From Paenibacillus sp. FSL H8-0537 (GTDB lineage: Bacteria > Bacillota > Bacilli > Paenibacillales > Paenibacillaceae): a stretch of DNA of 64,000 bases. The stretch spans positions 297,501 through 361,500 of the forward strand of contig NZ_CP150290.1 of NCBI RefSeq assembly GCF_038051995.1, given 5' to 3'. Under the pieces are notes generated by a model. It ran no database searches. It saw only the letters and a program-made list of their open reading frames with translations, and was not told where the DNA came from. Positions 16,896 through 58,077 of the stretch are shown piece by piece; the first letter of the stretch is position 1; each line of letters starts with the position of its first letter. The translations under genes and the position numbers were made by a program.

Positions 16896-17846
16896 ATGTT
16901 AAGCGACAAGTTGCGTATTTTCTCGGGATCGTCTAATCCGGAACTAGCTCAGAAGATTGCTTCGGATTTAGGATTGACGCTCGGCGCCATTAAGATGTCT
17001 AGATTCAAGAGTGGCGAAATTTATGTCCACTATGAAGAAACCATCCGGAACTGCGACGTATTTCTGGTTCAATCGTTTTCGCATCCGATCAACGAATATT
17101 TCGTAGAGCTGCTCGTAATGATTGATGCGGCGAAACGGGCTTCGGCGAAAACCATTAACATCATTATGCCGTATTACGGTTATGCCCGTCAGGAGCGTAA
17201 ATCCTCGCCGCGGGAACCGATTACCGCAAAAATGGTTGCAGACGTATTGACGACAGTTGGGGCGACCCGCGTCGTTACGATTGACTTGCATGCACCAGCG
17301 ATTCAGGGCTTCTTTAATATTCCGGTCGATCATATGACAGCTCTTGATCTGCTCAGCGATTATTTGAAATCGAAAAATATTAAAAACCCAGTTGTCGTAT
17401 CGCCAGATGCAGGACGCGCTTCAACTGCCGAGAAGCTTGCCAACTACTTGGACACTTCGTTCGCGATTATGATCAAGAAGCGTCCGGCACACAATGAGTC
17501 ATCGATTACCCATGTTATTGGTGATGTTGAAGGTCAGACACCGATTATTATCGAGGATCTGATTGATACCGGCACAACGATTGTCAATGTAGTCGAAAGC
17601 TTGAAGGAACGTGGCGCGGAAGATGTGTACGTGTGCGCTACTCACCCTCTGTTTTCCGGAAATGCTATTGAGCGTTTGGATATTCCAAGTATTAGAGAAG
17701 TAGTCGTAACCGACTCTATTCTCCTGCCTGACAATCGTCCGGACCGTTTCACTGTGCTGTCGGTTGCTCCACTGCTTGCGGAAGCAACACGCATCATTAT
17801 TGAAGGCGGTTCGATCAGCACCCTGTTCAAAAATGCAGGCGTGTAG
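16896..17846 (+). CDS. prs: ribose-phosphate pyrophosphokinase (PRPP synthetase)
   Basis: 316-aa class I PRPP synthetase that makes PRPP from ribose 5-phosphate and ATP. The SGSSNPELAQ N-terminus, the flexible-loop YYGYARQERKSSPREPI, the cation site DLHAPAIQGFF and the PRPP loop IIIEDLIDTGTTI are present. Many Bacillales carry another prs next to glmU, so this may be a second copy serving histidine synthesis; that is an inference from its place behind the his genes. Start at ATG 16896 with GGAGGG. Confidence 0.93.
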   Translation: MLSDKLRIFSGSSNPELAQKIASDLGLTLGAIKMSRFKSGEIYVHYEETIRNCDVFLVQSFSHPINEYFVELLVMIDAAKRASAKTINIIMPYYGYARQERKSSPREPITAKMVADVLTTVGATRVVTIDLHAPAIQGFFNIPVDHMTALDLLSDYLKSKNIKNPVVVSPDAGRASTAEKLANYLDTSFAIMIKKRPAHNESSITHVIGDVEGQTPIIIEDLIDTGTTIVNVVESLKERGAEDVYVCATHPLFSGNAIERLDIPSIREVVVTDSILLPDNRPDRFTVLSVAPLLAEATRIIIEGGSISTLFKNAGV

Positions 17847-17859
17847 CGAGAACTTTTTT

Positions 17860-17955
17860 GAAATATAGGAAAGGATATGATTTTCTCATCCTCTCTCTAT
17901 ATTTCTCGGAATGAAACGCGCTGCGGCGCCAGAGGACGGCGACAGCCGTTTCACC
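17860..17955 (+). repeat. double-hairpin intergenic element, copy A
   Basis: 96-base element. Stem 1 runs from GAAATATAG to CTATATTTC with an inner AGGAT/ATCCT pair. Stem 2 is closed by GAAACG/CGTTTC, with CGCTG/CAGC and a GC-rich inner helix, and ends in CACC. Three relatives lie at 21805, 28699 and 35802, all on this strand. It sits in the 324-base gap between prs and the TPR gene. After it, a GGGCGGTT-rich stretch and CTTTTTTGCC near 18035 hold no gene. The T-run CTTTTTT just ahead of it could help end prs transcription. Confidence 0.85.
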
Positions 17956-18170
17956 TCATGGACTCCTTACCAAAAACAGCATAAATACTTATATGAAATC
18001 GCGGGCGGTTATTAAAACGTCCGCTATTTTCATAGCTTTTTTGCCTGTTGCCCCAAGGGAGCGCGGGCAATAGCGGCCGCGGCGGAGCGTTTCCTTTAGT
18101 TTGAGTGCGCGAGTTGACCGTTCCTATGTTATAATCGTAGAAAATGAAGTTTCCGGGAGGTGCCTTGCCA

Positions 18171-19922
18171 ATGAAGGGAAAGAAACGCGCTGCCACAGCT
18201 GACCCAAAGACGAAAATCATACCTGTTCAGTGGGATGCCACATTCTTTTTCGAACGGGCTGTCCGCTCGTTGGACCGATACCACTATGACAAGGCACTCA
18301 AATATTTTCGCCGTGCTGTGGAATATGAGCCGGAAAATCCGGTTAACCATTGTAATATGGCAGGCATTTTATCGGAAATGGGCAACTATCAGGAATCCAA
18401 TAAAATTTTGCATTGGATCGTCGATGAGCTTGATCCTACGATGACGGAATGCCATTTCTATATGGCGAACAACTATGCCAACATGGAACAATATGAAGCC
18501 GCTGAAGGGGCACTGGTGCATTATCTCGAAGAGGATGCGGATGGGCAGTACCTCGATGAGGCGGAAGAAATGATGGAATTGCTCGATTATGAGCTGGAGC
18601 GTCCAACGCGGGTAACGAGTATTAAGGCGCGTGAAGGCTTGTTCGAGCATGATCAGGCACGCACGCTGCTGGAGGAAGGCAAGTTTACCGAGGCGGTTCG
18701 ACTACTGGAGGACATTATTGCGGCGCAGCCGGAGTTTCTGGCAGCACGCAATAATTTGGCGCTCGCTTATTATTATATGGGCCTGTTTGATAAGGCGATG
18801 GAAACGATACATGAGGCGCTGGATATTGATGCGGGCAACCTGCATGCCTTGTGCAATTTGGCGATCTTTTATCAGCATGCAGAGGACGAGAAAAGTTTGG
18901 CTCCACTAGTAGAGCTGCTGCGCAAGACGGCGCCTTTTCATGAGGAGCATGTATTTAAGCTGGCTACGACGATGGGGATTCTTGGCGAGCACGAGGCGGC
19001 TTACCGCCACTTCCTTCGCTTGCTGAAGGACCCTGATCTGAATCAGGACCCTTGCCTGTATCATTATGCGGCTGTAGCGGCCTGCAATATTGGGCGGTTC
19101 CATGAAGCCGAGCGGCTTTGGCGGCAGACAGCAAAGCTAGATCCAAAATCGAATATTCCTCGCTATTATATGGAACAGCTGGAGCTGGTGAAGCAAGGGC
19201 AGCACAAATCAGCGGTCAGCTACCATTATCATTTGCCGTTTGAGGAGCAGTTCAAGCTTTGGGAAAACTCCTCGGATGGACTGCCCGACCATTTGAAGCG
19301 TGACCCGCTTGTCCGCTCCTCCTTCTTCTGGGCGCTGCGCCACGGTGATCGCAACACGAAGCTGCAGGTCATCCAGGCGCTCGGCATGATTGCTGACAAT
19401 GAAGTAAAGGATGCGCTTAAGGCGTTTCTGATCGAACCGGGCGAAGATGACTATTTGAAGCGGATTGCGATTTTCGTTCTGCGTACGATTGATGTTCAGG
19501 AGCCGCTGCAGGCCATATTGGAGGGCAAGGAAACGGTCATCGAACCGAATCGTGTTCCTTCACGGCTGCCCGTATGGGAAGCCAAGTGGCAGGAAGTTGT
19601 CGAGGCTGCGCTTTCGCGAATGAACAAGCGTTATGATCTAATCCAACAGCATGATCTGATGACGCTGTGGGTCGAGTTTCTAAGCCGTGTATATCCGGAC
19701 GTTCCGAAGCTCAGCAAGGTGGAAGGCTGGGCCGCAGCGCTGGAATATTTGACGGCGAAGATGCATCGGCGCACGATTTCGTATCATGAGGTATCCGTTC
19801 GTTATGGCACTTCCATTGCAACGGTCAGCAAAAATGCGAAGCGAATCGATCAAGTGTGCGGCATAAAGGAAAAAATGCGTTCGATCAATTCGGTATTTGC
19901 GCCAGATGAGCCGCTGGAATAG
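18171..19922 (+). CDS. tetratricopeptide-repeat protein (YvcD-like)
   Basis: 583-aa soluble protein with TPR units across about residues 20-330: for example DKALKYFRRAVEYEPENPVNH, LLEEGKFTEAVRLLEDIIAA and the AYYYMGLFDKAMETIHEAL type helices. The C-terminal part ends with a helix-turn-helix-like segment (SVRYGTSIATVSKNAKRI). It stands directly before trxB, as yvcD does in Bacillus. The function is unknown; TPR arrays usually bind other proteins. ATG 18171 behind GGGAGGTG is preferred to 18144, which has no ribosome site. Confidence 0.82.
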   Translation: MKGKKRAATADPKTKIIPVQWDATFFFERAVRSLDRYHYDKALKYFRRAVEYEPENPVNHCNMAGILSEMGNYQESNKILHWIVDELDPTMTECHFYMANNYANMEQYEAAEGALVHYLEEDADGQYLDEAEEMMELLDYELERPTRVTSIKAREGLFEHDQARTLLEEGKFTEAVRLLEDIIAAQPEFLAARNNLALAYYYMGLFDKAMETIHEALDIDAGNLHALCNLAIFYQHAEDEKSLAPLVELLRKTAPFHEEHVFKLATTMGILGEHEAAYRHFLRLLKDPDLNQDPCLYHYAAVAACNIGRFHEAERLWRQTAKLDPKSNIPRYYMEQLELVKQGQHKSAVSYHYHLPFEEQFKLWENSSDGLPDHLKRDPLVRSSFFWALRHGDRNTKLQVIQALGMIADNEVKDALKAFLIEPGEDDYLKRIAIFVLRTIDVQEPLQAILEGKETVIEPNRVPSRLPVWEAKWQEVVEAALSRMNKRYDLIQQHDLMTLWVEFLSRVYPDVPKLSKVEGWAAALEYLTAKMHRRTISYHEVSVRYGTSIATVSKNAKRIDQVCGIKEKMRSINSVFAPDEPLE

Positions 19923-19982
19923 CGAGCAGGCGTGTCTGTAAAATATAATAGGGATAGGGCAAAATTTAAGGAGGGTTACAGG

Positions 19983-20930
19983 ATGTATAAAGCGATTATT
20001 ATCGGTACGGGTCCTGCGGGACTGACGGCTGCGATTTATTTGGCTCGTGCAAACATGAAGCCGCTAGTTATTGAAGGACCGGAGCCGGGTGGTCAATTGA
20101 CGACGACGACGGAGGTAGAGAACTTTCCGGGCTTCCCAGAAGGTATTATGGGTCCAGACTTGATGGCTAATATGCGCAAGCAAGCGGAGCGTTTCGGCGC
20201 AGAGTTTATTACAGGCTGGGTAAACAGCGTGGATACTTCGGCGAGACCGTTCAAGCTGCAAGTAGAAGGCAAAGGCGAATACGTAGGCGAGTCGCTTATC
20301 ATTTCTACTGGCGCTTCCGCCAAATACCTAGGCATTCCTGGGGAAAAAGAAAACGTAGGCCGCGGTGTCAGCACCTGCGCCACTTGCGACGGATTTTTCT
20401 TCCGCGGCAAGAAAATAATCGTGGTTGGCGGCGGAGACTCCGCTATGGAGGAAGCTAGCTTCCTGACTCGCTTTGCGACGAATGTAGAGCTTGTAAATCG
20501 CCGCGATGAGCTGCGCGCTTCCAAGATCATGCAGGACCGCGCACGCGAAAATGAAAAAATCGACTGGAGCCTAAACCGCACGCCAGTTGAGGTTGTAGCT
20601 GGGCCAATGGGCGTTACTGGTCTTAAAGTACGCAACAATGAAACAGGCAGTGAAGAAGTCATTGAGACGCACGGTATTTTTATCGCGATTGGCCACACGC
20701 CAAACACGGCCTTCCTTAATGGACAAATCGATACGGATGAGCATGGTTACATTAAAGTGAAGCCAGGCACTTCCGAGACGAACGTTCCGGGTATTTTCGC
20801 TTGTGGCGACGTGCAGGACAGCAAATATCGCCAAGCGATTACCGCTGCCGGCAGCGGCTGTATGGCGGCGCTTGACTGCGAACGTTTCCTTGAAGGCAGC
20901 ATGACGCATGACTGGAGCCAATCTCTGTAA
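19983..20930 (+). CDS. trxB: thioredoxin reductase
   Basis: 315-aa FAD enzyme that passes electrons from NADPH to thioredoxin. FAD site GTGPAGLTAAIYLARA near the N-terminus, redox-active CATC (STCATCDGFF, about residues 133-142), NADPH-binding GGGDSAMEEA and C-terminal ACGDVQDSKYRQAITAAGSG are present. ATG 19983 behind AAGGAGGG gives the standard length. It closes a unit with the TPR gene. Confidence 0.97.
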   Translation: MYKAIIIGTGPAGLTAAIYLARANMKPLVIEGPEPGGQLTTTTEVENFPGFPEGIMGPDLMANMRKQAERFGAEFITGWVNSVDTSARPFKLQVEGKGEYVGESLIISTGASAKYLGIPGEKENVGRGVSTCATCDGFFFRGKKIIVVGGGDSAMEEASFLTRFATNVELVNRRDELRASKIMQDRARENEKIDWSLNRTPVEVVAGPMGVTGLKVRNNETGSEEVIETHGIFIAIGHTPNTAFLNGQIDTDEHGYIKVKPGTSETNVPGIFACGDVQDSKYRQAITAAGSGCMAALDCERFLEGSMTHDWSQSL

Positions 20931-20950
20931 GCTTAGATTAAAATAGAGCA

Positions 20951-20990
20951 AATAACCCTTTGCCAGATAAATAAGGCAGAGGGTTATTTT
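20951..20990. terminator. bidirectional terminator between trxB and glpP
   Basis: The stem AATAACCCT-TGCC pairs with GGCA-AGGGTTATT and is followed by TT ATTT. It lies between convergent trxB and glpP. Confidence 0.8.
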
Positions 20991-21101
20991 ATTTGTTGTG
21001 TGCCCGTTTGTCCAGGCCGCACTCCAGAGCAGGAGAACGATGCCTTAGCATATGTTGGTAGCGCAGAATGGAGCCGAGCAGTATTGAGCTGCTGAATAAA
21101 A

Positions 21102-21668
21102 CTATTTGTTCGTAGAAGCGAAGTGCGTCCACAGCTCGCTGCGCGAGGTGGTCACTGCTGAAGCGCCAGCGGCAGTCGCATTTTCTACATCTGCTACAGT
21201 ACGGATCAGTCCGCCGGCAAAAATCGGGATGCCCGTCCGTTCAAAAACTTCACGAATGATATGAGGCATGACGCCTGGCAGCACTTCAATATAGTCAGGC
21301 TTCGTGCGCTCCAGCAGCACATAGCTTTTCTCCAGTGCGTGCGTGTCCAGCAGGAACAAGCGCTGTATCGCAATGAGGCCGTTTTTCTTTGCTGTACTAA
21401 TAACGGCGCCGCGCGTAGAAATAAGCCCGGCCGGGCGAATCATCTGGCACAAATATTCGGCGGCGTATTCGTCATTTTTGAGACCGCCGATTAAATCGGC
21501 GTGGAGCAGAATTTTTTTGCCATGGGCATTCGCCAGCTCGAAAATGCTCTGCAATTGGCTGATATGCGTCTCCAGCAGCACAATATAGGAGAAGTCAGAA
21601 GTCATCAGCTTTTCCAAATCCTTCGTTTTTCGTGGAGCAGGCAATATTTGCTGGTTGTGAAAGGGCAA
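21102..21668 (-). CDS. glpP: glycerol-3-phosphate-responsive antiterminator
   Basis: 188-aa GlpP-family protein, a TIM-barrel-like RNA-binding antiterminator that in Bacillus lets transcription pass a leader terminator of glpD and glpFK when glycerol 3-phosphate is present. Typical segments: LLHADLIGGLKNDEYAAEYL, ISTRGAVISTAKKNGL, and IEVLPGVMPHII with FAGGLIRT near the C-terminus. The start is TTG at 21668, behind AGGAGGT. No glp genes are adjacent, so its targets are elsewhere. Confidence 0.92.
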   Translation of the reverse strand: MPFHNQQILPAPRKTKDLEKLMTSDFSYIVLLETHISQLQSIFELANAHGKKILLHADLIGGLKNDEYAAEYLCQMIRPAGLISTRGAVISTAKKNGLIAIQRLFLLDTHALEKSYVLLERTKPDYIEVLPGVMPHIIREVFERTGIPIFAGGLIRTVADVENATAAGASAVTTSRSELWTHFASTNK

Positions 21669-21804
21669 GGACGAATACCTCCTTCTAGCGGATGTGGATT
21701 TATGGATCTATAATAAGCGGCCAGCTAGGCTTGTATAGGCTGCTTCGGTTCCGATGTGAAACGGACTTCTCCTTCTGATGGACGAGATCGTGCTGTTTTA
21801 GCTT

Positions 21805-21899
21805 GAAATATAGGAAAGTATGTGATGTTCCCATCCTTTCTCTATATTTCATCGCGAAACGAAAGCCCGCCGCCAAAGGGCGGCGTGGCGCGTTTCACC
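21805..21899 (+). repeat. double-hairpin intergenic element, copy B
   Basis: 95 bases between divergent glpP and glcK. Stem 1 (GAAATATAG/CTATATTTC) is nearly identical to copy A. Stem 2 keeps its closing GAAACG/CGTTTC and the trailing CACC, but the inner helix has changed to CCGCC/GGCGG, so both arms changed together. The rest of the 372-base gap holds GC-rich unassigned DNA and the glcK ribosome site. Confidence 0.85.
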
Positions 21900-22040
21900 T
21901 TGACCCTAGTCTAATGGATATACGGGGTGAACTCAACGTGCAAATCCAGCGGCAGCAAGGAGCTTCCCGCCTTGACCAGAGGGAGGAGCTTCGCTTATAG
22001 TGGACAGAGAAGATTAACATATTAATGAGGTGGACTGCAA

Positions 22041-22991
22041 ATGTCTCAAAAGATTTACGTTGGAATCGATGTTGGCGGAACGGCAATTAAGGTCGGATTG
22101 TGCAACGAGAACGGGGATTTGCTTCATACGTATGAAGGTCCCACAGAAACGAATAAAGGTACGGATGCTATCCTTGAAAATATTGCTGCTTATGCACGTG
22201 CCATCGTCGCTGAATCTTCCTATGAATGGGAGCAGGTTGGCGGCGTAGGCGTTGGAATAGCCGGTTTCTTGGACATTCCGACGGGCTATATTAAGTTCGC
22301 GCCGAATTTGAAGATTCGCGACGTAAATTTGAAAGATTATTTGGAAGCCAAGCTTGCAACTAAAGTGCTGGTAAATAATGATGCAAACGTGGCGGCGCTG
22401 GGCGAAGCTTGGGCTGGCGCGGGCAAGGGCATCGATCACTGCGTATGCTATACGCTTGGTACAGGCGTAGGTGGCGGTATTATTATCGGCGGCAAAATCG
22501 TTGAAGGTTTTGCGGGTATGGCTGGCGAGCTTGGACATATTGCGATTGTGCCGGATCTCGAAGCGATTCAGTGCGGCTGCGGCAAAATGGGCTGCCTGGA
22601 AACGGTATCTTCCGCAACGGGCATTATCCGTATGGCGAAGGATGCCGTTGAGCGCGGCGACCGTACGACGCTTGCTCAAGTGACAGATATTATGGCGAAG
22701 GACGTTATCGATGCAGCGAAAGCTGGAGATGAAGTGGCTATACGCATTGTAAGCCGTGCTGCGTATTATTTGGGACGCTCGATGGCGCTCATGGCAGTCG
22801 TGCTGAATCCGCAATGCTTCATTATTGGCGGCGGCGTATCCAAAGCCGGCGATTTTCTATTCGATCAAATTCGCGAAGTATTCGAGAAGTATACACAGAA
22901 AGAAGCGCAGGATGGCGTGAAAATCATCCCTGCTACGCTCGGCAACAATGCAGGTGTCGTTGGCGCGGCTGGATTGATTTTGCGCTCGTAG
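22041..22991 (+). CDS. glcK: glucokinase, ROK family
   Basis: 316-aa ROK kinase that phosphorylates glucose with ATP. The N-terminal ATP motif GIDVGGTAIKVGL, the catalytic Asp in VNNDANVAALGE, the HxxxEXGH-type GELGHI and the zinc motif CGCGKMGCLE (about residues 177-186) are visible. ATG 22041 follows GAGGTGG. It begins the glcK-rapZ-yvcK-whiA-HPr run; copy B of the repeat lies in its leader. Confidence 0.94.
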   Translation: MSQKIYVGIDVGGTAIKVGLCNENGDLLHTYEGPTETNKGTDAILENIAAYARAIVAESSYEWEQVGGVGVGIAGFLDIPTGYIKFAPNLKIRDVNLKDYLEAKLATKVLVNNDANVAALGEAWAGAGKGIDHCVCYTLGTGVGGGIIIGGKIVEGFAGMAGELGHIAIVPDLEAIQCGCGKMGCLETVSSATGIIRMAKDAVERGDRTTLAQVTDIMAKDVIDAAKAGDEVAIRIVSRAAYYLGRSMALMAVVLNPQCFIIGGGVSKAGDFLFDQIREVFEKYTQKEAQDGVKIIPATLGNNAGVVGAAGLILRS

Positions 22992-23045
22992 CGATAAACA
23001 TAGGATAACAGGGACATTTTCCCCGCTTGTAAGGAGGAGAAGAAG

Positions 23046-23933
23046 ATGGAGACGGCAGCAGCACTAGCGAAGCTTGTTATTATTACAGGGATGTCAGGTG
23101 CAGGCAAAACGATTGCTGTACAAAGTCTGGAGGATCTTGGCTTCTTCTGCGTCGATAATTTGCCCCCGGTGCTTATCCCAAAGTTTGCTGAGCTAATTGA
23201 GCAATCAAACGGGAAGATCGGCAAGGTCGCATTGGTTATTGACTTGCGCGGCAGGGAGTTTTTTACAGCTTTGGCGGAGTCCTTAAGTTATATTAAAGAC
23301 CATTCTACCATAAGCTGTGAGATACTGTTCCTGGATGCGACGGATGGCGTGCTTGTTCAACGTTATAAGGAAAGCCGTCGCCGTCACCCGCTTGTGCCCG
23401 ACGGCTTGCCGCTGGACGGCATCAAGCTGGAACGCAGAATGCTGGAGGACCTGAAGGGGTCTGCTTCGCTGGTTATTGATACGAGCAGCATCAAGCCCGC
23501 ACAGTTGAAAGAGCGAATTATTTCCAAGTTTACGAACCTGGAGCAAAATAGCTTATCAGTCAATGTCATTTCTTTCGGCTTTAAATATGGTATTCCGATT
23601 GATGCGGATTTAATTTATGATGTGCGTTTTTTGCCTAATCCTCATTATATTGAGCATCTGCGCCCAAATACCGGCCAGACGCCAGAGGTTTATGAATATG
23701 TGATGAAATGGCCGGAAACGCAGGCGTTTCTGGCTAAGCTGGTTGACATGCTCCAGTTCCTTCTTCCGCTTTATCATAAGGAAGGGAAGAGCCAGGTCGT
23801 TATCGGCATTGGCTGCACCGGAGGAAAACATCGCTCGGTGGCGATTTCGGAATACTTGGGCCGTGTGCTGGGAAGCAGTGATACGGAACGGGTACGCGTC
23901 AGCCATCGCGATTCCGACCGCGACAAGCATTAA
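23046..23933 (+). CDS. rapZ: RapZ/YvcJ nucleotide-binding protein
   Basis: 295-aa P-loop protein with Walker A GMSGAGKT (residues 15-22), DLRGREFF, the conserved [26 protein letters not shown] region (about 178-203) and C-terminal [12 protein letters not shown]. In E. coli RapZ adapts the small RNA GlmZ to RNase E; in Bacillus YvcJ hydrolyses GTP and affects competence. The exact role in this organism is open. It is 12 bases from yvcK. Confidence 0.95.
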
Positions 23934-23945
23934 CGGAGGGAACGT

Positions 23946-24932
23946 ATGCAGAACAGGCACAAAATAGGAGCTCCTCCCAAGATCGTGGTCATTGGCGGAG
24001 GCACAGGATTATCCGTTATGCTGCGCGGGCTTAAGGAAAAGCCTATGGATATTACAGCCATCGTCACGGTTGCTGATGATGGGGGCAGCTCTGGCGTGCT
24101 TCGCAATGAGCTGCAAATTCCGCCTCCAGGCGATGTTCGCAATGTGCTGATGGCACTTGCCGACACCGAGCCGCTGCTCGCAGAGGTGCTGCAATACCGA
24201 TTTAATTCAGGTACAGGACTAGCGGGGCATAGCCTCGGCAATTTAATGCTGGCTGCTATGGCTGACATCACAGGCGATTTTGTGACGGGCGTACGCGAGC
24301 TGAGCAGGGTACTGGCGGTACGCGGACGGGTTTTGCCCGCCGCAGCCCAGGCCATTGTGCTTAAGGCGGAAATGGCCGATGGCTCGATCGTCATTGGCGA
24401 GTCGATGATTCCAAAGGCGGGCCAAGCGATTAAACGTGTATTCATTGATACGGAGAATGCGCACGCGCTGCCGGAAGCGGTCAAAGCGATTGAGCAAGCA
24501 GATGCTATCTTAATTGGGCCGGGAAGCTTGTACACGAGTATTATGCCGAATTTGATTGTTCCGATGCTTGCTCAAGCGATTACGGAATCTTGCGCCGTCA
24601 AGCTGTTTGTATGCAATGTGATGACGCAGCCGGGTGAGACGGACAATTATACGGTATCGGATCATATGAATGCGATTGAGGCCCATATCGGCCTGCAATT
24701 ATTCGATTATGTCATTGTGAACAATGGTGAAATTTCACCGCAAGTGGAAGCCAAATACGCAGAGATGGGCGCGAAGCCCGTCGCTATTGATTTGGAAGCT
24801 ATTCGCAGCAAGGGCTGCGAGGTTATTGAGGATCGTTTTGTTTTATTCCAGACGTTTCTAAGGCATGATGCCGAGCGTCTAAGCCATCATATTTATAAGC
24901 TAGTGGAAAACTGGATGATTAGAAAGAGGTGA
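23946..24932 (+). CDS. yvcK: YvcK/CofD-like gluconeogenesis factor
   Basis: 328-aa protein of the CofD/YvcK family, with the N-terminal VVIGGGTGLSVMLRGLK and the TVADDGGSSGVLR segment. YvcK binds UDP-GlcNAc in Bacillus and is needed for growth on gluconeogenic carbon and for normal cell-wall synthesis. The order rapZ-yvcK-whiA is one of the most conserved in Gram-positive bacteria. Confidence 0.95.
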   Translation: MQNRHKIGAPPKIVVIGGGTGLSVMLRGLKEKPMDITAIVTVADDGGSSGVLRNELQIPPPGDVRNVLMALADTEPLLAEVLQYRFNSGTGLAGHSLGNLMLAAMADITGDFVTGVRELSRVLAVRGRVLPAAAQAIVLKAEMADGSIVIGESMIPKAGQAIKRVFIDTENAHALPEAVKAIEQADAILIGPGSLYTSIMPNLIVPMLAQAITESCAVKLFVCNVMTQPGETDNYTVSDHMNAIEAHIGLQLFDYVIVNNGEISPQVEAKYAEMGAKPVAIDLEAIRSKGCEVIEDRFVLFQTFLRHDAERLSHHIYKLVENWMIRKR

Positions 24933-24938
24933 CAAACC

Positions 24939-25868
24939 ATGTCGTTTGCGGCACAAACAAAAAAGGAACTTACGCTTATTGAAGCGGATTCCTGCTGTGA
25001 GCTTGCAGAGCTTTCCGCGCTCATTCGGATGAATGGTTCTGTCAGCTTATCCAGCCGCAAAGTCATTTTGGACATCTCAACAGAAAATGCTGCAATAGCC
25101 CGTCGTATTTATTCTCTGGTCAAAAGGCACTTTGAGGTACACACCGAGCTGTTGGTTCGGAAAAAAATGCGGCTGAAAAAGAACAATGTGTATATCGTAC
25201 GTATTCCAACAATGGTACAATCTATATTAAGCAAGCTTCATATCGTATCTGAGGGTTTCGTGTTCAACTCCGGAATTGATAAGACGATGATTAAGAAGTC
25301 TTGCTGCAAACGTTCATATTTGCGTGGTGCTTTCCTTGCTGGAGGTTCAGTGAATAACCCTGAGGGTTCCTCGTACCATTTGGAAATCTCTTCAATGTAT
25401 GAGGAGTATTGCGGCTCATTAGTGGAGCTGGCCAATAAGTTCGAGCTGAATGCCCGCTGCATCGAGCGGAAGAAAGGCTTTATTTTTTACATTAAGGAAG
25501 GCGAGAAAATTATTGAGCTGCTGAACATTATTGGCGCTCATCAGGCGCTGTTTAAATTCGAGGATGTGCGAATTATGCGCGACATGCGCAATTCCGTCAA
25601 TCGAATCGTCAATTGCGAGACAGCGAACCTGAACAAGACCATCGGCGCGTCCGTGCGGCAGATTGATAATATTAAACTGCTGGACCGCGAGCTAGGCCTT
25701 GAAAATTTGCCGGATAAGCTCAAGGAAGTCGCTGAAATTCGCCTGCAGCATCCCGATCTGAACTTGAAGGAAGTTGGAGAACTGCTCAAAGGGTCAGTGA
25801 GCAAGTCAGGCGTAAACCACAGGCTTCGCAAAATTGACGAACTTGCTGAAAAAATACGCAACGGCTAA
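24939..25868 (+). CDS. whiA: WhiA DNA-binding protein
   Basis: 309-aa protein with an N-terminal domain related to LAGLIDADG endonucleases ([24 protein letters not shown] stretch near 125-145) and a C-terminal helix-turn-helix ([26 protein letters not shown]). It acts in cell division and chromosome segregation in Bacillus and in sporulation in Streptomyces. It begins six bases after yvcK, behind AGAAAGAGGTG. Confidence 0.95.
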
Positions 25869-25965
25869 ACTTTTAACTTCATGTTTCCGATGGTATAATG
25901 ATACAATGAGTTTAAAATTATCGGCATAATTAAGGATTGAATAAGATATAGGGGGTATGCTTTCC

Positions 25966-26235
25966 ATGACAAGGCTTCCGGTTGTCGTTCGACTAAAAAC
26001 AGGTCTTCATGCAAGACCTGCAGCATTATTCGTACAAGAAGCTAATAAATTTTCATCAGAAGTATTCGTCGAGAAAGACGACAAGAAAGTGAATGCCAAA
26101 TCGATTATGGGAATTATGAGCTTGGCAATCAGTTCGGGCACTGAAGTTTTCATAAGTGCGGAAGGTTCGGACGCAGAACAGGCTGTAAACGCTTTAGCTG
26201 CATTGGTAAGCAAGGAAGAGCTCGAGAACCAATAA
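25966..26235 (+). CDS. HPr-family phosphocarrier protein with both His15 and Ser46
   Basis: 89-aa HPr fold. With the start at ATG 25966 (AGGGGG ten bases upstream), the active-site histidine is exactly residue 15 (TGLHARPA) and the regulatory serine is residue 46 (NAKSIMGIMSL). In Bacillus this locus, behind whiA, carries crh, whose residue 15 is Gln and which cannot take part in PTS phosphotransfer. Here the histidine is kept, so the protein could be an ordinary phosphocarrier as well as an HprK substrate and CcpA partner. A main ptsH may exist elsewhere. Confidence 0.9.
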   Translation: MTRLPVVVRLKTGLHARPAALFVQEANKFSSEVFVEKDDKKVNAKSIMGIMSLAISSGTEVFISAEGSDAEQAVNALAALVSKEELENQ

Positions 26236-26288
26236 GAAGCCTTATGCAGCAGGGACTCGTCTGCTCATAACCATATCTTTTGGCCATG

Positions 26289-26326
26289 CCGCCTTTTGGA
26301 TCAGGATGATCCAGGGCGGTTTTTTT
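26289..26326 (+). terminator. terminator of the glcK-HPr operon
   Basis: CCGCC-TTTGGATC pairs with GATCCA-GGCGG, followed by TTTTTTT. The bases just after it (GAAATATAAGCCATATT) recall stem 1 of the double-hairpin element but lack the rest. Confidence 0.88.
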
Positions 26327-26356
26327 GAAATATAAGCCATATTGAAAAAGAGTCCA

Positions 26357-26400
26357 TAACAAAACAAACCCGGTTCGCCTGAACCGGGTTTGTTTTGTTA
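26357..26400. terminator. bidirectional terminator between the HPr gene and clpP
   Basis: A perfect 20-bp stem: TAACAAAACAAACCCGGTTC, loop GCCT, then its complement ending in TGTTTTGTTA. It serves both convergent transcripts. Confidence 0.9.
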
Positions 26401-26425
26401 TACACCCATATGAATGATGGATGAT

Positions 26426-27007
26426 TTAGATTTTCTCAATAACCTTATCAACCAGACCATACGCGCAAGCTTCTTGGGCGCTCATGAAATAGTCGCGATC
26501 GGTATCCTTCTCAACGCGCTCAAGCGGTTGGCCTGTGCGCTCGGACAGGATTCCGTTAAGATGGTCGCGCATTTTGATAATGCGGCGAGCACGGATTTCG
26601 ATGTCGCTCGCTTGGCCTTCAGCGCCGCCCAGCGGCTGGTGAATCATAACCTCGCTGTTCGGAAGCGCGTAACGCTTGCCTTTGGCGCCTGCTGCAAGCA
26701 GGAACGCGCCCATCGATGCTGCCATACCTACACAAATGGTGGATACGTCAGGCTTGATGTATTGCATCGTATCATAGATAGCCATACCCGAGGTAATCGA
26801 ACCGCCAGGGCTGTTAATGTAAAGGGAGATGTCTTTCTCAGGGTCATCTGCTGTCAGAAACAGCATCTGTGCGATGATGGAGTTGGCTACAACGTCATTG
26901 ACGCCCGAGCCCAAGAAGATAATACGATCCTTCAATAACCGGGAATAGATGTCATAGGAGCGCTCTCCGCGATTAGTTTGCTCAATAACCATAGGAACGA
27001 AATTCAT
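26426..27007 (-). CDS. clpP: ATP-dependent Clp protease proteolytic subunit
   Basis: 193-aa serine protease subunit that forms the tetradecameric barrel used with ClpX and ClpC. Catalytic triad: Ser in [11 protein letters not shown], His in MIHQPLGG and Asp in DTDRDYF. The start [11 protein letters not shown] at 27007, behind GGAGGAGG, gives normal length. No CtsR box is obvious in the short upstream region. Confidence 0.96.
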
Positions 27008-27237
27008 ATCCTGTAAACCTCCTCCGAAAAATAACAAGATTGATATTGCCGTAACATCATAATAGCGGATGAAACGTTAAAAGTCAAAGATAGTCAGACA
27101 AATCAGATTTTTCTCGGGCGCATGCCGTTTCATAGCTAAAAAACGATATAAAAAAACCACCCTTTCATCAGGGTGGCCACATACTAGGCTTCATAAACGC
27201 CTATTGCTCGCTGCAAATTGTTATCGGTTAATCAGAA

Positions 27238-27309
27238 CGCGCCCGCTAGGAATCGAACCTAGATCTCAGGCTCCGGAGGCCTACGTCATATCCATTGGAC
27301 CACGGGCGC
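27238..27309 (-). tRNA. tRNA-Arg (CCG)
   Basis: About 72 nt on the minus strand. Acceptor stem GCGCCCG/CGGGCGC, T-arm GGTTCGATTCC, anticodon CCG in the loop CTCCGGA. No CCA is encoded, unlike the seven tRNAs of the first cluster. It stands alone between clpP and cggR. Confidence 0.93.
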
Positions 27310-27428
27310 ATGTATAAAAGTAACAGCAAGATTTAGTATATGTTAAATGTGAATAGAAATCAAGCCAGCTATTAAAAATAAATTTGCTAAAATCGTGTCG
27401 GTAAACGGTTTCATATGAAATTGTTGAC

Positions 27429-27457
27429 TTGAAATGTTAGATCAAGTTCGGTAAAAT
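27429..27457 (+). promoter_or_regulatory. predicted promoter of the glycolytic operon
   Basis: TTGAAA (27429-27434), 17-base spacer, TAAAAT (27452-27457). It lies directly before the CggR operator, which would block or stall polymerase leaving this promoter. Confidence 0.65.
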
Positions 27458-27462
27458 AGAGG

Positions 27463-27498
27463 TGGGACTTAAAACGAAAGCATGGGACGTTTCGTGTC
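27463..27498 (+). promoter_or_regulatory. CggR operator
   Basis: GGGACGTTTCGTGTC at 27484-27498 fits the known CggR half-site CGGGAC-N6-TGTC, apart from the first base. A second GGGAC begins exactly 20 bases upstream at 27464. In Bacillus two such direct repeats bind a CggR tetramer, released by fructose 1,6-bisphosphate. The site lies between the predicted promoter and cggR, so the regulator would control its own operon. Confidence 0.8.
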
Positions 27499-27560
27499 CA
27501 CCGCTATGCGTGAGTATCGGTTTCGCTTAACTTAGTACGGGTGGAGTGAATAATTAGAAG

Positions 27561-28598
27561 ATGCGCCAGATGATTGAATTGCAGCAGCAGCTTCTGCCAG
27601 ATTTGCTCGACGTGATGAGGAAGCGCTATAGGATACTGCACCAGGTTATGCTCTCTGATCTAATCGGCCGCAGAACGCTTGCGACAACGCTCGGTATGAC
27701 GGAGAGGGTGCTGCGAGCAGAAACGGACTTTCTAAAGTCACAGGGCTTGCTTGAAATTCATGCCTCTGGCATGAGGATCAGTGAACCCGGCAAAGAACTG
27801 CTGGAACAGTTTGAGCCTTTTGTGCAGACGATTTTCGGCTTGTCGGAGCTTGAGGAGAAGATCAGAAGTTATTTTGGGCTGAGCCAGGTTGTCGTTGTGG
27901 CCGGCGATTCTGATGTATCCGCACAGACGAAGCGGGAACTCGGCAGAGCAGGAGGACAGGTACTGCGCAAAGCGATGGAGCAAGGCGACGTTATTGCCGT
28001 TACAGGCGGTACGACGACTGCTCAGGTGGCAAATCAGCTTTCGGCCGTGGCGCCGCTTAAAACCAATTGGTTCGTGCCTGCAAGAGGCGGACTTGGCGAA
28101 AGCGTCGATTATCAGGCGAATACGATTGCTTCCACCATGGCGAAGCGGACAGGTGCCAATTATCGGTTGCTTCACGTTCCTGATCATCTTGGAGAGGAAG
28201 CTTATGCTCCCATTATGCAGGAACCGAATATCCAGGACATTATAGAAGTGATCCGCAGGGCGCGTATTGTCGTGCACGGCATCGGAGACGCTATGGTGAT
28301 GGCTCGGCGCAGGAAGCTTGATGAGGCGACGATGCAGGGTATTGAAGCGGAGGGGGCACTTGCGGAAGCATACGGTTTTTATTTTGATCGGAGCGGGCAA
28401 GTGGTTCACAAGATGCCGACGGTAGGACTACGGCTCGAGGATATTGTTAAGACTGAAGTTGTTATCGGGGTAGCCGGAGGCAAAAGCAAAGGCGAAGCGA
28501 TCGCAGCAGTTATGCGCTTTGGACACAATGATGTTTTAGTTACTGATGAGGCTGCCGCATTAGAAATAATTGCAATTATTGAAGGCTCAGCACCATAA
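27561..28598 (+). CDS. cggR: central glycolytic genes regulator
   Basis: 345-aa SorC-family repressor. The N-terminal winged helix (about residues 30-60, RRTLATTLGMTERVLRAETDFLK) binds DNA. The effector domain has GDSDVSAQTKRELGRA, TGGTTTAQVA and the C-terminal GVAGGKSKGEAI segment. It represses gapA-pgk-tpiA-gpmI-eno in glycolytic shortage. Start at ATG 27561 is preceded by GGTGGAGTG. Confidence 0.94.
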   Translation: MRQMIELQQQLLPDLLDVMRKRYRILHQVMLSDLIGRRTLATTLGMTERVLRAETDFLKSQGLLEIHASGMRISEPGKELLEQFEPFVQTIFGLSELEEKIRSYFGLSQVVVVAGDSDVSAQTKRELGRAGGQVLRKAMEQGDVIAVTGGTTTAQVANQLSAVAPLKTNWFVPARGGLGESVDYQANTIASTMAKRTGANYRLLHVPDHLGEEAYAPIMQEPNIQDIIEVIRRARIVVHGIGDAMVMARRRKLDEATMQGIEAEGALAEAYGFYFDRSGQVVHKMPTVGLRLEDIVKTEVVIGVAGGKSKGEAIAAVMRFGHNDVLVTDEAAALEIIAIIEGSAP

Positions 28599-28653
28599 AA
28601 ATATAAGAATTTATAAGTTGCAGCTTATAAATAGGACTTATATTTCTCCGACA

Positions 28654-28696
28654 AAGCTCTTCGCTCGTCCTAGAAGGACGAAGAAGTCGTTTTTGC
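28654..28696 (+). other. hairpins between cggR and gapA
   Basis: CTTCG-CGTCCT pairs with AGGACGAAG and is followed by TCGTTTTTG, which looks like a leaky terminator. Just before it (28601-28647) AAATATAAG pairs with CTTATATTT around an inner TTATAAG hairpin; this outer stem recalls stem 1 of the double-hairpin element. In Bacillus the cggR-gapA messenger is cut between the two genes, so processing is another possibility. Confidence 0.6.
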
Positions 28697-28698
28697 TT

Positions 28699-28798
28699 GA
28701 AATAGTAAGAAAGTATAAGTTTCACGCTTATACTCCGCTTATATTTCTCGGACTGAAACGCGCCGCGCCACCAAAGGAAAGGCGACAGCCGTTTCACC
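28699..28798 (+). repeat. double-hairpin intergenic element, copy C
   Basis: 100 bases ahead of gapA. Stem 1 has changed to GAAATAGTAAG/CTTATATTTC with an inner GTATAAG/CTTATAC pair, so its arms changed together relative to copies A and D. Stem 2 keeps GAAACG/CGTTTC and ends in CACCTTGG. The gene starts 107 bases later. Confidence 0.85.
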
Positions 28799-28893
28799 TT
28801 GGCAAGTGATCTTGATGCTTCGCGCCGTGCGAGACAATGGCACCCGGCATGCGAAATGTCTTGAAATATATTTTTTATCCCAAAACACTCTAG

Positions 28894-29910
<1,017 letters not shown>

Positions 29911-29956
29911 GAACAAGGGAAATATCCCCCACAATTACATGGAACGCTTTACGTCC

Positions 29957-30152
29957 CAGGCCGGTCTTGCACCGGCTGCGGGATACGCTTAATCCGCGGC
30001 GCTCCCGGGGCATCGTATGCGATTCAAGCGAAACCTTAACAGGGGCGCGATTTTGTCTTCACGACGAAGCGCGGCTTCAGGTTTGCGAGCCTTCTGGCCG
30101 CGAGCCAAGAGGGAGCGTTCCTTCTTTTGATAAAGAGGGAACGCTTCTTTTT
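29957..30152 (+). other. structured gapA-pgk spacer with terminator-like hairpin
   Basis: The 296-base spacer is rich in short helices: GCCGGT/ACCGGC, GCGGGAT/ATCCGC, and at 30113-30152 GAGCGTTCC/GGGAACGCTTC followed by TTTTTG, which resembles an intrinsic terminator. Because pgk, tpiA, gpmI and eno follow on the same strand, it may cause partial termination or stabilise the gapA message. No open frame here looks real. Confidence 0.6.
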
Positions 30153-30206
30153 GTTTGAATATAGATGATGACAAGCTTTGCACGCTAATATCAGGAGGTT
30201 ACATTC

Positions 30207-31388
30207 ATGGCTAAAAAAAGTGTTCGTGACGTAGAAGTAGCAGGCAAACGGGTATTCGTACGCGTCGATTTCAATGTACCGCTCGAAGATGGTAAAATTA
30301 CCGATGACAAGCGTATCCGTGAGACGCTTCCTACGATTAACTTCTTGATCGAAAAAGGCGCGAAAGTTATTTTGGCAAGCCACTTGGGCCGCCCGAACGG
30401 TGAAGTTGTAGAAGAGCTTCGCCACACTGCATCGGCAGCGCGTCTGTCTGAGCTGCTTGGCAAACCGGTAGTAAAAGCAGATGAGTCGATCGGTGAAAAT
30501 GTTAAAGCGCAAATCGCGGCTTTGAATGCTGGCGATGTATTGCTGCTTGAAAACGTTCGTTTCCATGCGGGCGAAGAGAAAAATGATGCTGAGCTGGCGA
30601 AAGCTTTCGCTGAGCTTGCTGATCTTTACGTAAATGACGCTTTCGGCGCTGCACACCGTGCTCACGCTTCGACTGAAGGCATTGCGCACCACCTGCCGGC
30701 TGTTTCCGGTCTATTGATGGAGAGAGAGCTTGATGTTCTTGGCAAAGCGCTGAACAACCCTGAGCGTCCTTTCACAGCTATCGTAGGCGGTTCGAAGGTT
30801 AAGGATAAAATTGACGTTATCAACAAAATGATTGAAATTGCTGACAACATCATTATCGGTGGCGGCTTGTCCTACACGTTCTTCAAAGCACAAGGCCATG
30901 AAATCGGCAAATCGCTGGTTGATAACTCGAAGCTTGATCTGGCGCTTGAGTTCATCGAGAAAGCTAAAAAGCTCGGCAAAAACTTCCTCATTCCAGTTGA
31001 TATCGTTGTCGCTGATGATTTCAGCAAAAACGCCAACACGCAAATCGTTGAAGTTGACGGCATTCCAGCTGAGTGGGAAGGCATTGACATCGGTCCTAAG
31101 ACGCGTGAAATCTACGCTGAAGCGATCAAAAACTCCAAGCTAGTTGTTTGGAACGGACCTATGGGCGTATTCGAAATCGAGCCTTTCTCCCATGGTACAC
31201 AAGCGGTAGCGAAAGCATGTGCAGAAACAGCTGGCTACACCGTTATCGGTGGCGGCGATTCAGCTGCAGCGGCTGAGAAATTCGGTCTTGCTGACAAAAT
31301 GGACCACATTTCCACTGGCGGCGGCGCTTCCCTGGAATTCATGGAAGGCAAAGTATTGCCGGGCGTTGAAGCACTTAACGATAAATAA
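30207..31388 (+). CDS. pgk: phosphoglycerate kinase
   Basis: 393-aa two-domain kinase that makes ATP from 1,3-bisphosphoglycerate. N-terminal [21 protein letters not shown], the Gly-rich [11 protein letters not shown] and the C-terminal [13 protein letters not shown] / [10 protein letters not shown] nucleotide segments are present. ATG 30207 behind CAGGAGG. Thirty bases separate it from tpiA. Confidence 0.97.
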
Positions 31389-32174
<786 letters not shown>

Positions 32175-32175
32175 G

Positions 32176-33708
32176 ATGGCTGCTCCAGTTGCATTAATTA
32201 TTCTTGATGGCTTTGGTCTGCGCGATGACGTTACAGGCAATGCAGTTGCCCAAGCGAAAAAGCCGAACTACGACCGTTACTGGTCGACTTACCCTCATAC
32301 GCAGCTGACAGCGAGCGGTGAAGCGGTAGGCTTGCCAGATGGACAAATGGGCAACTCCGAGGTTGGACACTTGAACATCGGAGCAGGCCGCATCGTCTAT
32401 CAGGATTTGACTCGCATCAGCAAGTCGATCCGCGACGGCGAGTTTTTCGACAATGAAACACTGCTTGGCGCTGTGCGCCATGCAAAAGCAAATAGCAAGA
32501 AGCTTCACTTATACGGCCTGCTGTCTGATGGCGGCGTACACAGCCACATTGCGCATTTGTTTGCTCTGCTTGACCTGGCAAAAAAGGAAGGCCTGGAAGA
32601 GGTCTATATCCATGCATTCCTTGATGGCCGCGACGTTGCCCCGGATAGCGCAAAAGGCTACATGGAGCAGTTAATCGCGAAGATCGAAGAGGTAGGCGTA
32701 GGCAAAATTGCTACGGTACAAGGACGTTATTATGCGATGGATCGCGACAAACGCTGGGAGCGGGTAGAGAAGTCATACCGCGCTATGGTGTATGGCGAAG
32801 GTCCACAATATACGGACCCTCTTAAGGCGATAGTTGAATCGTACGAGAAATCCGTTTATGATGAGTTTGTTATGCCAACGGTTATCGTAGGTGAGGATGG
32901 CAAACCGGTAGGTCTCGTCGAGTCGGAGGATGCGGTTATTTTCTTCAACTTCCGTCCAGACCGTGCGATTCAACTGGGACAAGTGTTTACGAACGCAGAT
33001 TTCCGCGGTTTTGAACGTGGGGAGCATGCTCCGAAAAATTTGTATTTCGTATGCTTGACGCTATTCAGCGAAACGATTGACGGTTTTGTGGCCTATTCGC
33101 CGAAAAATCTCGATAATACGCTTGGTGAAGTGCTTGTGCAAAACGGCAAGAAGCAGCTTCGCATTGCGGAAACTGAGAAGTACCCGCATGTTACGTTCTT
33201 CTTTAGCGGTGGTCGTGATCATGAACTTCCGGGCGAGACTCGCGTTCTGATCAATTCGCCTAAAGTTGCAACGTATGATCTTCAGCCGGAAATGAGCGCT
33301 TATGAGGTGGCAGCAGCTGCGGTCAGCGAGATTGAAGCAGACAAGCATGATGCAATTATCTTGAATTTTGCCAATCCGGATATGGTGGGTCACTCCGGCA
33401 TGCTGGAGCCGACAATCAAAGCGGTAGAAGCAACGGATGCATGCTTGGGTCAAGTCGTTGAGGCGGTGCTTGCTAAAGGCGGCGTATGTATTATTACAGC
33501 TGACCATGGTAATGCCGATATGGTATTTGATGCAAACGGACGTCCGTTCACGGCGCACACAACCAACCCAGTGCCTTGCATTGTGACGGTTGCTGGAGCA
33601 ACGCTGCGTGAAGGCGGAATTTTGGCAGACCTTGCACCTACGGTGCTTGATCTGATGCAGCTTTCCAAGCCGGCAGAGATGACGGGCATTTCCCTGATTC
33701 AGAAGTAA
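32176..33708 (+). CDS. gpmI: cofactor-independent phosphoglycerate mutase
   Basis: 510-aa manganese-dependent iPGM of the alkaline phosphatase superfamily. Metal motif [10 protein letters not shown] near the N-terminus and the nucleophile Ser in [13 protein letters not shown] (about residue 60). Also [12 protein letters not shown] and the C-terminal metal set ITADHGNAD and [10 protein letters not shown]. Start at ATG 32176, coupled closely to tpiA. Confidence 0.97.
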
Positions 33709-33726
33709 CAACAATCATCAAACTAA

Positions 33727-35034
<1,308 letters not shown>

Positions 35035-35135
35035 GCCCAAACCAATGACTACTTGCTCATTATGATTAGCCAGTACTCTGATTCTGACCTTTTCAAGGTG
35101 AGCAAGTATCAATGCGAATAAGCTTTATTGCACTT

Positions 35136-35177
35136 AAAAAACCCCTGCCCACAAATAATGTGGAGCAGGGGTTTTTG
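35136..35177. terminator. terminator of the glycolytic operon
   Basis: AAAAACCCCTGC pairs with GCAGGGGTTTTT around an 18-base loop region. A weaker pairing ACTTGCTCA/TGAGCAAGT spans 35050-35107 upstream. Confidence 0.9.
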
Positions 35178-35191
35178 GTATGTAAAAGGGT

Positions 35192-35404
35192 GAAAGGCTG
35201 CTGAAAAGGCAAGCGGAGTAAAAGGGTTGGGGTGGAGAAGCGCAGCGTTCGTCTAAAGCTTTCCGTAGGAAAGCAGCTTCGTAAGCATATGCTGGTGTCT
35301 TTGGAAATCTACCGCTAAAGCAGTTATTGTTCAGGGATTTCCAAGGGCAACAGCGATCGAACCACAACCCTTTTACGCAGCGCAGATCCTTTTCAGCAGC
35401 CTTC
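35192..35404. repeat. 213-base imperfect palindrome
   Basis: The outer arms AGGCTGCTGAAAAGG (35195-35209) and its complement (35388-35402) match perfectly. A second pair, GTAAAAGGGTTG and its complement (35365-35376), lies inside. Further in are GCTTTCC/GGAAAGC and TTGGAAATC/GATTTCCAA hairpins. The right end coincides with the stop codon of the minus-strand gene at 35404. It could be a mobile-element relic of the MITE type or a large structured RNA. No other copy is seen in the window. Confidence 0.75.
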
Positions 35405-35751
35405 TATCGCGCCGTTTTGCGTCCAACAGCCAACTCCACACGATGCACAACAATGTAGACAACCAGCAAGCCAATAGCAAGCATTAACGAACCTTCCGAA
35501 TACTGCTGAAACAGCCGAACCGACCAGCCATTATCCCCTATAATCCAATAAGCAATAAAATTAGAAACCGCAATACCGTCCTCATATGAGGGAATCAGAC
35601 TGTACAAATAATTTTGTGAAAGACCTATTGCAGCTATGAGCGTAAGGATGACGGAAATGAAGACACCTTTGGAGTAAATGTATAAGGCGCCCGCTTTTTT
35701 GAGAACAATCATGGTTAGGATAATCCCGGCTAAACAAATGATAATAAACAT
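35404..35751 (-). CDS. small membrane protein of unknown function
   Basis: 115 aa with three or four hydrophobic helices (about residues 1-18, 28-46 and 82-103), ending in a basic tail (GRKTAR). The ATG at 35751 follows GAGGGGG at a good distance, so the longer frame to 35790 is not needed. I do not recognise the family. It is divergent from the sugar isomerase gene, with repeat copy D in the shared spacer. Confidence 0.6.
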   Translation of the reverse strand: MFIIICLAGIILTMIVLKKAGALYIYSKGVFISVILTLIAAIGLSQNYLYSLIPSYEDGIAVSNFIAYWIIGDNGWSVRLFQQYSEGSLMLAIGLLVVYIVVHRVELAVGRKTAR

Positions 35752-35801
35752 AGCGGTATCCCCCTCTGCATAAGTAGTGTGCGAATCCATGCACGTTTTT
35801 T

Positions 35802-35897
35802 GAAATATAGGAAAGGAAATGATTTCGCCATCCTTTCTCTATATTTCCCGGACTGAAACGCGCTGTGCCGCCAGAGAACGGCGACAGCCGTTTCACC
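35802..35897 (+). repeat. double-hairpin intergenic element, copy D
   Basis: 96 bases, closest to copy A. Stem 1 GAAATATAG/CTATATTTC; stem 2 GAAACG-CGCTG-GCCG paired with CGGC-CAGC-CGTTTC, then CACCTTGG. It lies 73 bases before the sugar isomerase start and in the divergent spacer of the minus-strand membrane gene. Confidence 0.85.
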
Positions 35898-35969
35898 TTG
35901 GTTACCTCTAATGACGAGCCTGTTTTATAAATGGTTGCTGGATTTGAGCAGAAAAGGAGGTGTTATTTT

Positions 35970-41761: not shown

Positions 41762-42124
41762 GGGGGCGTTCTTGGATTCGACGGGGATAGGACGAGCGCG
41801 GGTTGCGGGTAGTGGGGACGCGTCCACTTTATCAACGCTAAAGCCTATTAAATGGCAAACAACAAACAAACTACGCTTTCGCAGCCTAAGAAACTGTGAG
41901 CGTGCTCCTACCTAGCATCGCCCATGTGACTAGACTAGGGGCTAACAAGTAGTGGGATACGCTGTCTCATCTCCGCCTGGGGTGAGCTGAAGAAGACAAT
42001 CAGGCTGACCTTGGAAGAAGCTGGTTACGAGGCGTCCTCCTGGGTGACATCAAATTCGTGACTACACCCGTAGATGCCTGTGTGGCGTGATCTTCGGACA
42101 GGGGTTCGACTCCCCTCGCCTCCA
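41762..42124 (+). ncRNA. ssrA: transfer-messenger RNA (tmRNA)
   Basis: 363-nt tmRNA. The acceptor arm GGGGGCG (41762-41768) pairs with CGCCTCC (42117-42123), and the T-arm GGGGTTCGACTCCCC precedes it. The tag frame starts at GGC 41854 and reads GKQQTNYAFAA, then TAA at 41887-41889. Its start GKQ is like tags of other Bacillales, but it ends AFAA rather than the usual ALAA. CCA is not encoded (ATTA follows). The 3' end is the probable attachment site of the island that follows. Confidence 0.95.
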
Positions 42125-42132
42125 TTAGAGTG

Positions 42133-57970: not shown

Positions 57971-58077
57971 CATTTGAACATTATTTTTTAACTCGGTGTG
58001 AGAGTAACTCTACACATCTTTACGAGGTTCAAATAAACGGAAAAATGATATAATAATAACGAATGGAGCTGATGCCG

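Follow-up and report, generated by a model that had tools for sequence, protein, structure and literature searches.

A two-hairpin repeat upstream of carbohydrate and redox genes in Paenibacillus sp. FSL H8-0537 is probably a non-autonomous mobile element

Four copies of a two-hairpin element lie upstream of carbohydrate and redox genes in a 64,000-nucleotide stretch of the Paenibacillus sp. FSL H8-0537 chromosome (contig NZ_CP150290.1, positions 297,501 to 361,500; the whole stretch is called the window here). Their position raises the question of whether they are regulatory leader RNAs, copies of a dispersed repeat, or both, and the original prediction allowed all three answers. The dispersed repeat is strongly supported by high copy number and by empty sites in close relatives. 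A general function as leader RNA is refuted, although one copy may have been exapted. The element is probably a non-autonomous, non-coding mobile repeat that tends to be oriented along replication and resides in intergenic T-rich tracts. We infer the mechanism from these features, and its single-strand chemistry is predicted.

The four elements were recovered at 17860-17955, 21805-21899, 28699-28798, and 35802-35897 (copies A to D), and all share the proposed design of GAAATA...TATTTC, then GAAACG...CGTTTC, then CACC. Inner helices are altered on both arms together between copies, as had been claimed and as alignments of the four copies show. The stem-2 pattern GAAACG-N20-50-CGTTTCACC has exactly four matches in the window, which are the four copies (0.00 expected from 100 shuffles). 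The stem-1 pattern GAAATA-N25-45-TATTTC has five matches versus 0.10 expected, the fifth of which, at 52745, is unrelated. Each copy has a two-hairpin RNA fold (z scores of -5.0, -7.7, -4.2, and -6.8 for A to D). The repeat unit is about 97-101 bases long: hairpin 1 is AT-rich, hairpin 2 is GC-rich, a short linker separates the two, and a CACC-like end follows. The stem of hairpin 1 is made up of about 9-10 outer and 8-10 inner pairs with a bulge of 1-2 bases on its 3' side between them, and it is capped by a loop. In the consensus of 20 copies, TG/TA precedes hairpin 1 and GGACT precedes hairpin 2; the right end after hairpin 2 is CACC, or ACGC/TTGC in other subfamilies.

A covariance model built from 20 copies of the element's own genome (7,005,912 bases) identified at least 150 full-length copies there, in 135 places. 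Searched by itself, the 12-base right end is found 144 times, compared to two occurrences for a reversed control. The true copy number exceeds 150, because 150 is the number of candidates scored and the right ends outside that list include full units: of 19 such right ends examined, about nine resemble full units, eight are defective in hairpin 1, and two are apparently chance matches. Hairpin 1 is missing, truncated, or collapsed beside the right hairpin at loci L392, L393, L395, L396, L403, L407, L408, and L410. Arrays of two to four units occupy 11 of the 135 places, and in 10 of these arrays a single base links the units. Near-identical copies can lie far apart (1907394 and 4018204 have one difference). 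Hairpin-1 types I and II are each paired with all three right ends in the own-genome loci, so the units are mosaic; the pairing is non-random (p 0.013). The copies at 2028645, 2640345, 2753177, and 4925830 are each followed by a unit beginning GAATTCTAAG, in which the outer stem GAAATA/TATTTC is swapped on both arms for GAATTC/GAATTC.

Matches occur in 33 of 60 genomes (own genome included), with 30 of 37 within the genus and three of 23 outside it, with up to 69 copies counted per genome under stricter filters. The remaining seven of the 37 Paenibacillus genomes have no match to the model. Seven genomes (G010, G013, G016, G022, G026, G028, and G032) have from 62 to at least 69 copies each. 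A pattern scan of GTDB genomes returned at least 120 stretches; among the 80 on which the model was run, it matches 70 of 73 Paenibacillus stretches and none of seven from other organisms. Among those stretches, the ones closest to the own genome are from P. algorifonticola (89-94% identical where overlapping). Two plasmid records matched, both large replicons of P. cellulosilyticus, with half of the query covered, and no match was found in phages. In genomes G003, G011, and G020, matches are numerous but even the best score low (E 1.5e-8 to 7e-8); these are clade-specific, diverged versions of the family.

The repeat has characteristic flanks. In the own genome, the left flank is 59-70% T at positions -6 to -3 and 96% T at -1, and the right flank is TTG (94/92/82% per base). 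Among copies from 30 genomes, the right flank is nearly always TTG or a close variant, and the left flank is mostly T-rich or another unit. The T-rich/TTG flanks and a fifth unit in the window, C0, were overlooked in the original prediction.

Relatives G032 and G013 share about 94% identity with the window, and at every window site at least one of them differs. Copy A (17859-17955, + strand, 111.6 bits) is a full unit with hairpin 1 at 17860-17905 and hairpin 2 at 17913-17952, followed by ACC. The stop codon of a ribose-phosphate diphosphokinase gene precedes it by 12 bases, and a TPR protein gene follows downstream; the element is found in G013 and is missing from G032. Copy B (21804-21899, + strand, 79.7 bits), a full unit upstream of a ROK glucokinase gene, corresponds to a three-unit array in G013 and is removed within a larger deletion in G032. 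Copy C (28698-28798, + strand, 91.8 bits) is a full unit upstream of gapA. Directly upstream of it, head to tail, is unit C0 (about 28598-28696, + strand, 28.2 bits, E 0.011), which is diverged, belongs to another subfamily with the right end TTTTTGC, and overlaps with its left end the stop codon of a DeoR/CggR-like gene (27561-28598). Site C has two units in the own genome, none in G032, and two in G013, where the second is from another subfamily. Copy D (35801-35897, + strand, 107.5 bits) is a full unit between divergent genes, upstream of a xylose-isomerase-like TIM-barrel gene; site D has no unit in G013 and two in G032. The empty site in G013 reads GCACGTTTTTGGTTACC at the T-tract on the left end of copy D (35795-35800, + strand). 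The TTG at the right end (35898-35900, + strand) belongs to the target and exists in the empty site.

Comparison with G032 was possible at 14 of the 135 own-genome places, the window sites among them, with 20 additional G032 stretches picked by expected position. Two of the 14 have a full-length insertion in G032, and the other 12 have clean empty sites, larger changes, or remnants. Place 5009747 was excluded from this tally because that G032 locus had been selected for its element. At the four empty sites that can be read (A, C, D, and 137364), TT and the next base after the right end are target sequence, and insertion is seen at a T-rich tract that ends in TTG or TTA. One or two duplicated T at the junction are compatible with these sites. 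A 3-base target duplication would fit two empty sites but not the general run of flanks.

Gene calls for 117 regions came from a home-made caller based on codon usage, and replication direction was assigned with base 1 as the origin and the midpoint as the terminus. Of the 135 places, 131 are intergenic and the other four overlap called genes. With the element as the reference, both neighbors are sense at 56 of the 131 intergenic places, convergent at 23, divergent at 25, and both antisense at 27. Ninety-eight of the 135 places (73%) are along replication (p 1.5e-7) and 37 are opposite. Replication is separated from transcription not by this total but by places between lagging-strand gene pairs, by convergent pairs, and by a T-tract control. 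Sense and antisense copies number 55 and 17 between leading-strand gene pairs, and one and 10 between lagging-strand pairs (Fisher p 3e-5). That is, where both neighbors run against replication, 10 of 11 copies are along replication and antisense to those genes. Between convergent genes, 18 copies are along replication and five against. The orientation bias also exceeds the strand bias of the other intergenic T-tracts of this sequence (96:35 vs 404:340, p 5e-5; p 0.002 and 1.4e-6 under two other definitions of the control). By thirds of model score, 36, 35, and 27 of 45 places are along replication. The bias recurs in other genomes, at 73 of 88 places in G010 and 32 of 43 in G032 (among the 150 matches listed of 266, origin assumed at base 1) and at 23 of 26 listed places in G013 (origin placed by synteny).

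Covariation in a larger alignment was evident. In a set of 30 genomes, represented by one best-scoring copy each and aligned by fitting to the model, pairing is kept in 624 of 653 pair cells, and 15 of 22 pairs have double-sided changes, a level that none of 500 shuffles reached. These figures are from the cleaned 30-row alignment; a 59-row alignment contains opposite-strand and array matches. The first 20 own-genome copies have weak covariation (one of 22 pairs), and the signal is clear only across genomes. Four copies have a counterpart at the same place in a relative; these are 92.0% identical overall, compared with 93.6% for their flanks (element/flank by site: 95.9/94.3, 85.6/91.0, 90.6/91.6, and 95.9/97.3). 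These are four of six own-genome places with an element-length counterpart; 326198 and 4018204 were excluded before counting because of poorly aligned flanks or a differing second unit. The family as a whole retains the structure, while at these only four sites the resident copies drift like their surroundings. This combination is expected of a spreading element and not of a useful leader.

A cis-regulatory leader RNA for carbohydrate and redox genes was one of the readings offered in the original prediction. The copies do lie 58-220 bases before + strand starts, and the gene labels hold (a TPR protein followed by thioredoxin reductase, ROK glucokinase, type I GAPDH, and a xylose-isomerase-like TIM barrel). 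The copies also fold well and have two-sided changes. However, the four window copies all face + strand genes because most genes and most copies are on the + strand in that replichore, and copies tend to be aligned with replication rather than with neighboring genes. The 23 places between convergent genes and the 27 antisense to both neighbors, the turnover of window sites between close relatives, and the flank-like divergence of the shared copies, although a small sample, rule out leader RNA as a general function. As had been claimed, no known riboswitch matches: copies A to D match no family in Rfam 15 at gathering scores or at E up to 5. A scan for terminator-like sites found none on the forward strand inside copies A to D, and only opposite-strand calls, in copy B. 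We consider the leader interpretation extremely unlikely, and any influence on gapA, glcK, and similar genes would be a by-product of insertion. A DNA or RNA site that serves the host and is kept by selection, such as a polar site for replication or the nucleoid, an mRNA stabilizer, or an attenuator, would account for replication-aligned orientation in several chromosomes, high copy number, and conserved hairpins. It is nevertheless very doubtful, given that 37 of 135 places are opposite, that sites vary between close relatives and shared copies diverge like their flanks, and that seven genomes of the genus have no match.

With orientation along replication, the forward strand is the lagging-strand template, and the repeat probably enters this template as a single strand, a step that is predicted. 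Bared as lagging-strand template, the forward strand would fold into both hairpins, which a trans-acting enzyme would recognize, and the unit would be inserted immediately ahead of the final TTG/TTA in a T-rich tract. The resident copy would then offer TTG again at its left end, where the next copy could enter. Head-to-tail arrays would grow because of this renewed TTG, and the hairpins would be retained for spreading rather than for a host gene. A more speculative version, less likely than not, is replication-coupled, single-strand mobility with a self-renewing TTG target and an enzyme outside the Y1, Y2, TnpB-linked, and reverse transcriptase (RT) classes. Mobilization may depend on an enzyme of another class or on a host protein, or the enzyme may have been lost.

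Several observations weigh against the main proposal of a mobile repeat that tends to follow replication. Called genes are along replication as often (473/611, 77%), so the proportion for the repeat is not higher; divergent gene pairs have no bias (13:12), and the lowest-scoring third has no significant bias (27/45, p 0.23). Clean empty sites are only four, and several other site differences are deletions or remnants. Two details of T-run or left flank fit imperfectly, on the left side of site C, which matches its empty counterpart poorly. No 3-base target duplication is seen, as the left and right third bases are unassociated (p 0.53). No mobilizing enzyme was found in searches limited to Y1, Y2, TnpB, and RT, and no autonomous parent was found in the 125 bases inspected upstream of the 19 extra right ends.

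The main rivals of the main proposal are a lost Y1 system and a retro-type route. In the former, the repeat would be left over from a Y1 system of the IS200/IS605 or RAYT type, most carriers having since lost the transposase, and recent change would be mostly recombination, array slippage, and deletion. Two hairpins and replication-aligned orientation do recall the ends of IS200/IS605 elements, which use the lagging-strand template, as described in the available text of PMC6006769; Y1 genes are still present in the own genome, G003, G014, and G035, and remnants and deletions are frequent at the compared sites. Yet the Y1 domain (PF01797) occurs in eight of 60 genomes and in none of the seven genomes with 62 to at least 69 copies, near-identical distant copies imply recent copying, and the consensus has no GTAG at the hairpin foot, so that a Y1 relic appears unlikely. 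In a retro-type route, element RNA would be copied into DNA with priming at T-tracts, as for endonuclease-less group II introns at forks. The T-rich left flank, replication-aligned orientation, and copies with the left hairpin truncated or missing and the right end intact are consistent with it. However, RVT_1 (PF00078), found in 32 of 60 genomes, is absent from copy-rich G013, G022, and G026 and is a broken fragment only in G032. Nor is there a clear excess of G.T over A.C mismatches among 218 distinct ungapped copies (291 vs 409; 286 vs 248 without pairs 2-47 and 64-86, the two richest in A.C). Among the 150 own-genome copies, G.T and A.C counts are 16 and 22 in hairpin 1 and 12 and 49 in hairpin 2. 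The 30-genome counts (29 vs 14; 16 vs 3 without the two border pairs) are a hint only, as these are best-scoring, model-fitted copies. We regard the retro-type route as quite improbable. Y2 (PF04986) occurs in six and TnpB (PF07282) in 16 of 37 genomes, a set without G026, G028, and G032, and both are absent from copy-rich G013, G016, and G022. All four domains are absent from G013 (one contig) and G022 (draft), each with at least 69 copies. The own genome has three Y1, five TnpB, and one RT matches, which are not common to other carriers.

The window has other features. At 26355-26402 (- strand), a 20-pair stem-loop is followed by a T-rich tail; its stem is the longest that a scan of 17700-36100 for terminator-like sites returned. 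Between trxB and the glucokinase gene, at 21102-21668 (- strand), lies a gene for a glycerol-3-phosphate responsive antiterminator (PF04309). A 12-base tandem repeat of 9.5 copies (58785-58898) is within the open reading frame 58063-59001. The reading frame at 49950-50804 (- strand) has a RepB primase-like domain and lies 8 kb after the tmRNA gene (41762-42127); its region has long intergenic gaps and is possibly an integrated remnant.

These results indicate that two-sided base changes and upstream position can mimic a riboswitch in a mobile hairpin family. A genus-wide, highly polymorphic repeat is useful for typing of Paenibacillus and for correct reading of core-gene leaders such as that of gapA. 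What moves orphan palindromic repeats becomes a testable question in cultivable bacteria, because there are copy-rich genomes without the four known classes of mobilizing enzymes.

Known repeat systems share some of these traits. BOX, RUP, and SPRITE repeats of Streptococcus pneumoniae are likewise small, interspersed, structured, mostly intergenic, and from a Gram-positive host, and BOX is built of modular, variable tandem units, according to the available text of PMC3049150. The same text places 60.8-63.3% of them on the leading strand, an orientation that mirrors coding bias, whereas the Paenibacillus repeat departs from lagging-strand genes. They are tied to terminal inverted repeats of resident insertion sequences (IS), whereas the Paenibacillus repeat has none longer than about five bases (TGAAA); its T-rich/TTG flanks also differ from theirs, with BOX compared by description and not by sequence (PMC3049150). 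REP/REPIN sequences with RAYT are likewise high-copy extragenic palindromes, some arrayed and likely acting as single-strand DNA, as far as described in PMC3733652 and PMC6006769. In contrast, their GTAG/GTGG tag at the hairpin foot is not in the Paenibacillus consensus (20 copies), their carriers have Y1 and seven copy-rich Paenibacillus genomes do not, and the Paenibacillus unit is two unlike hairpins. CGTC-tagged palindromes are also a palindromic family reported without a dedicated transposase (PMC3733652), but CGTC is not at the hairpin foot of the consensus, and Paenibacillus is not mentioned in the available part of that paper. IS200/IS605 elements likewise have left and right hairpins and use the lagging-strand template (PMC6006769, in the part available), but the Paenibacillus hairpins are at the very ends and Y1 is absent from seven copy-rich genomes. 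The Y2 or TnpB expected in carriers of IS91/Helitron-like or TnpB-linked elements, and the reverse transcriptase expected in carriers of retro-type elements, are likewise lacking from copy-rich genomes such as G013 and G022. Bacterial miniature inverted-repeat transposable elements (MITEs), for which the available text of PMC10969869 was used, and Bacillus cereus bcr repeats are likewise small, non-autonomous, intergenic, and stem-loop forming. That text defines MITEs by terminal inverted repeats and target duplications, but the ends TTGAAATATAG and reverse-complemented CAAGGTGAAACG share, by inspection, only TGAAA; insertion polymorphism with empty sites is a MITE feature in the broad sense that the repeat has. 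The family is set apart from REP/RAYT and MITEs because the tag and terminal inverted repeats are lacking and Y1 is absent from seven copy-rich genomes. We found no description of it in the open literature, with most subscription journals outside the search. The Paenibacillus two-hairpin repeat is apparently an undescribed family within a known kind, the small interspersed hairpin repeats.

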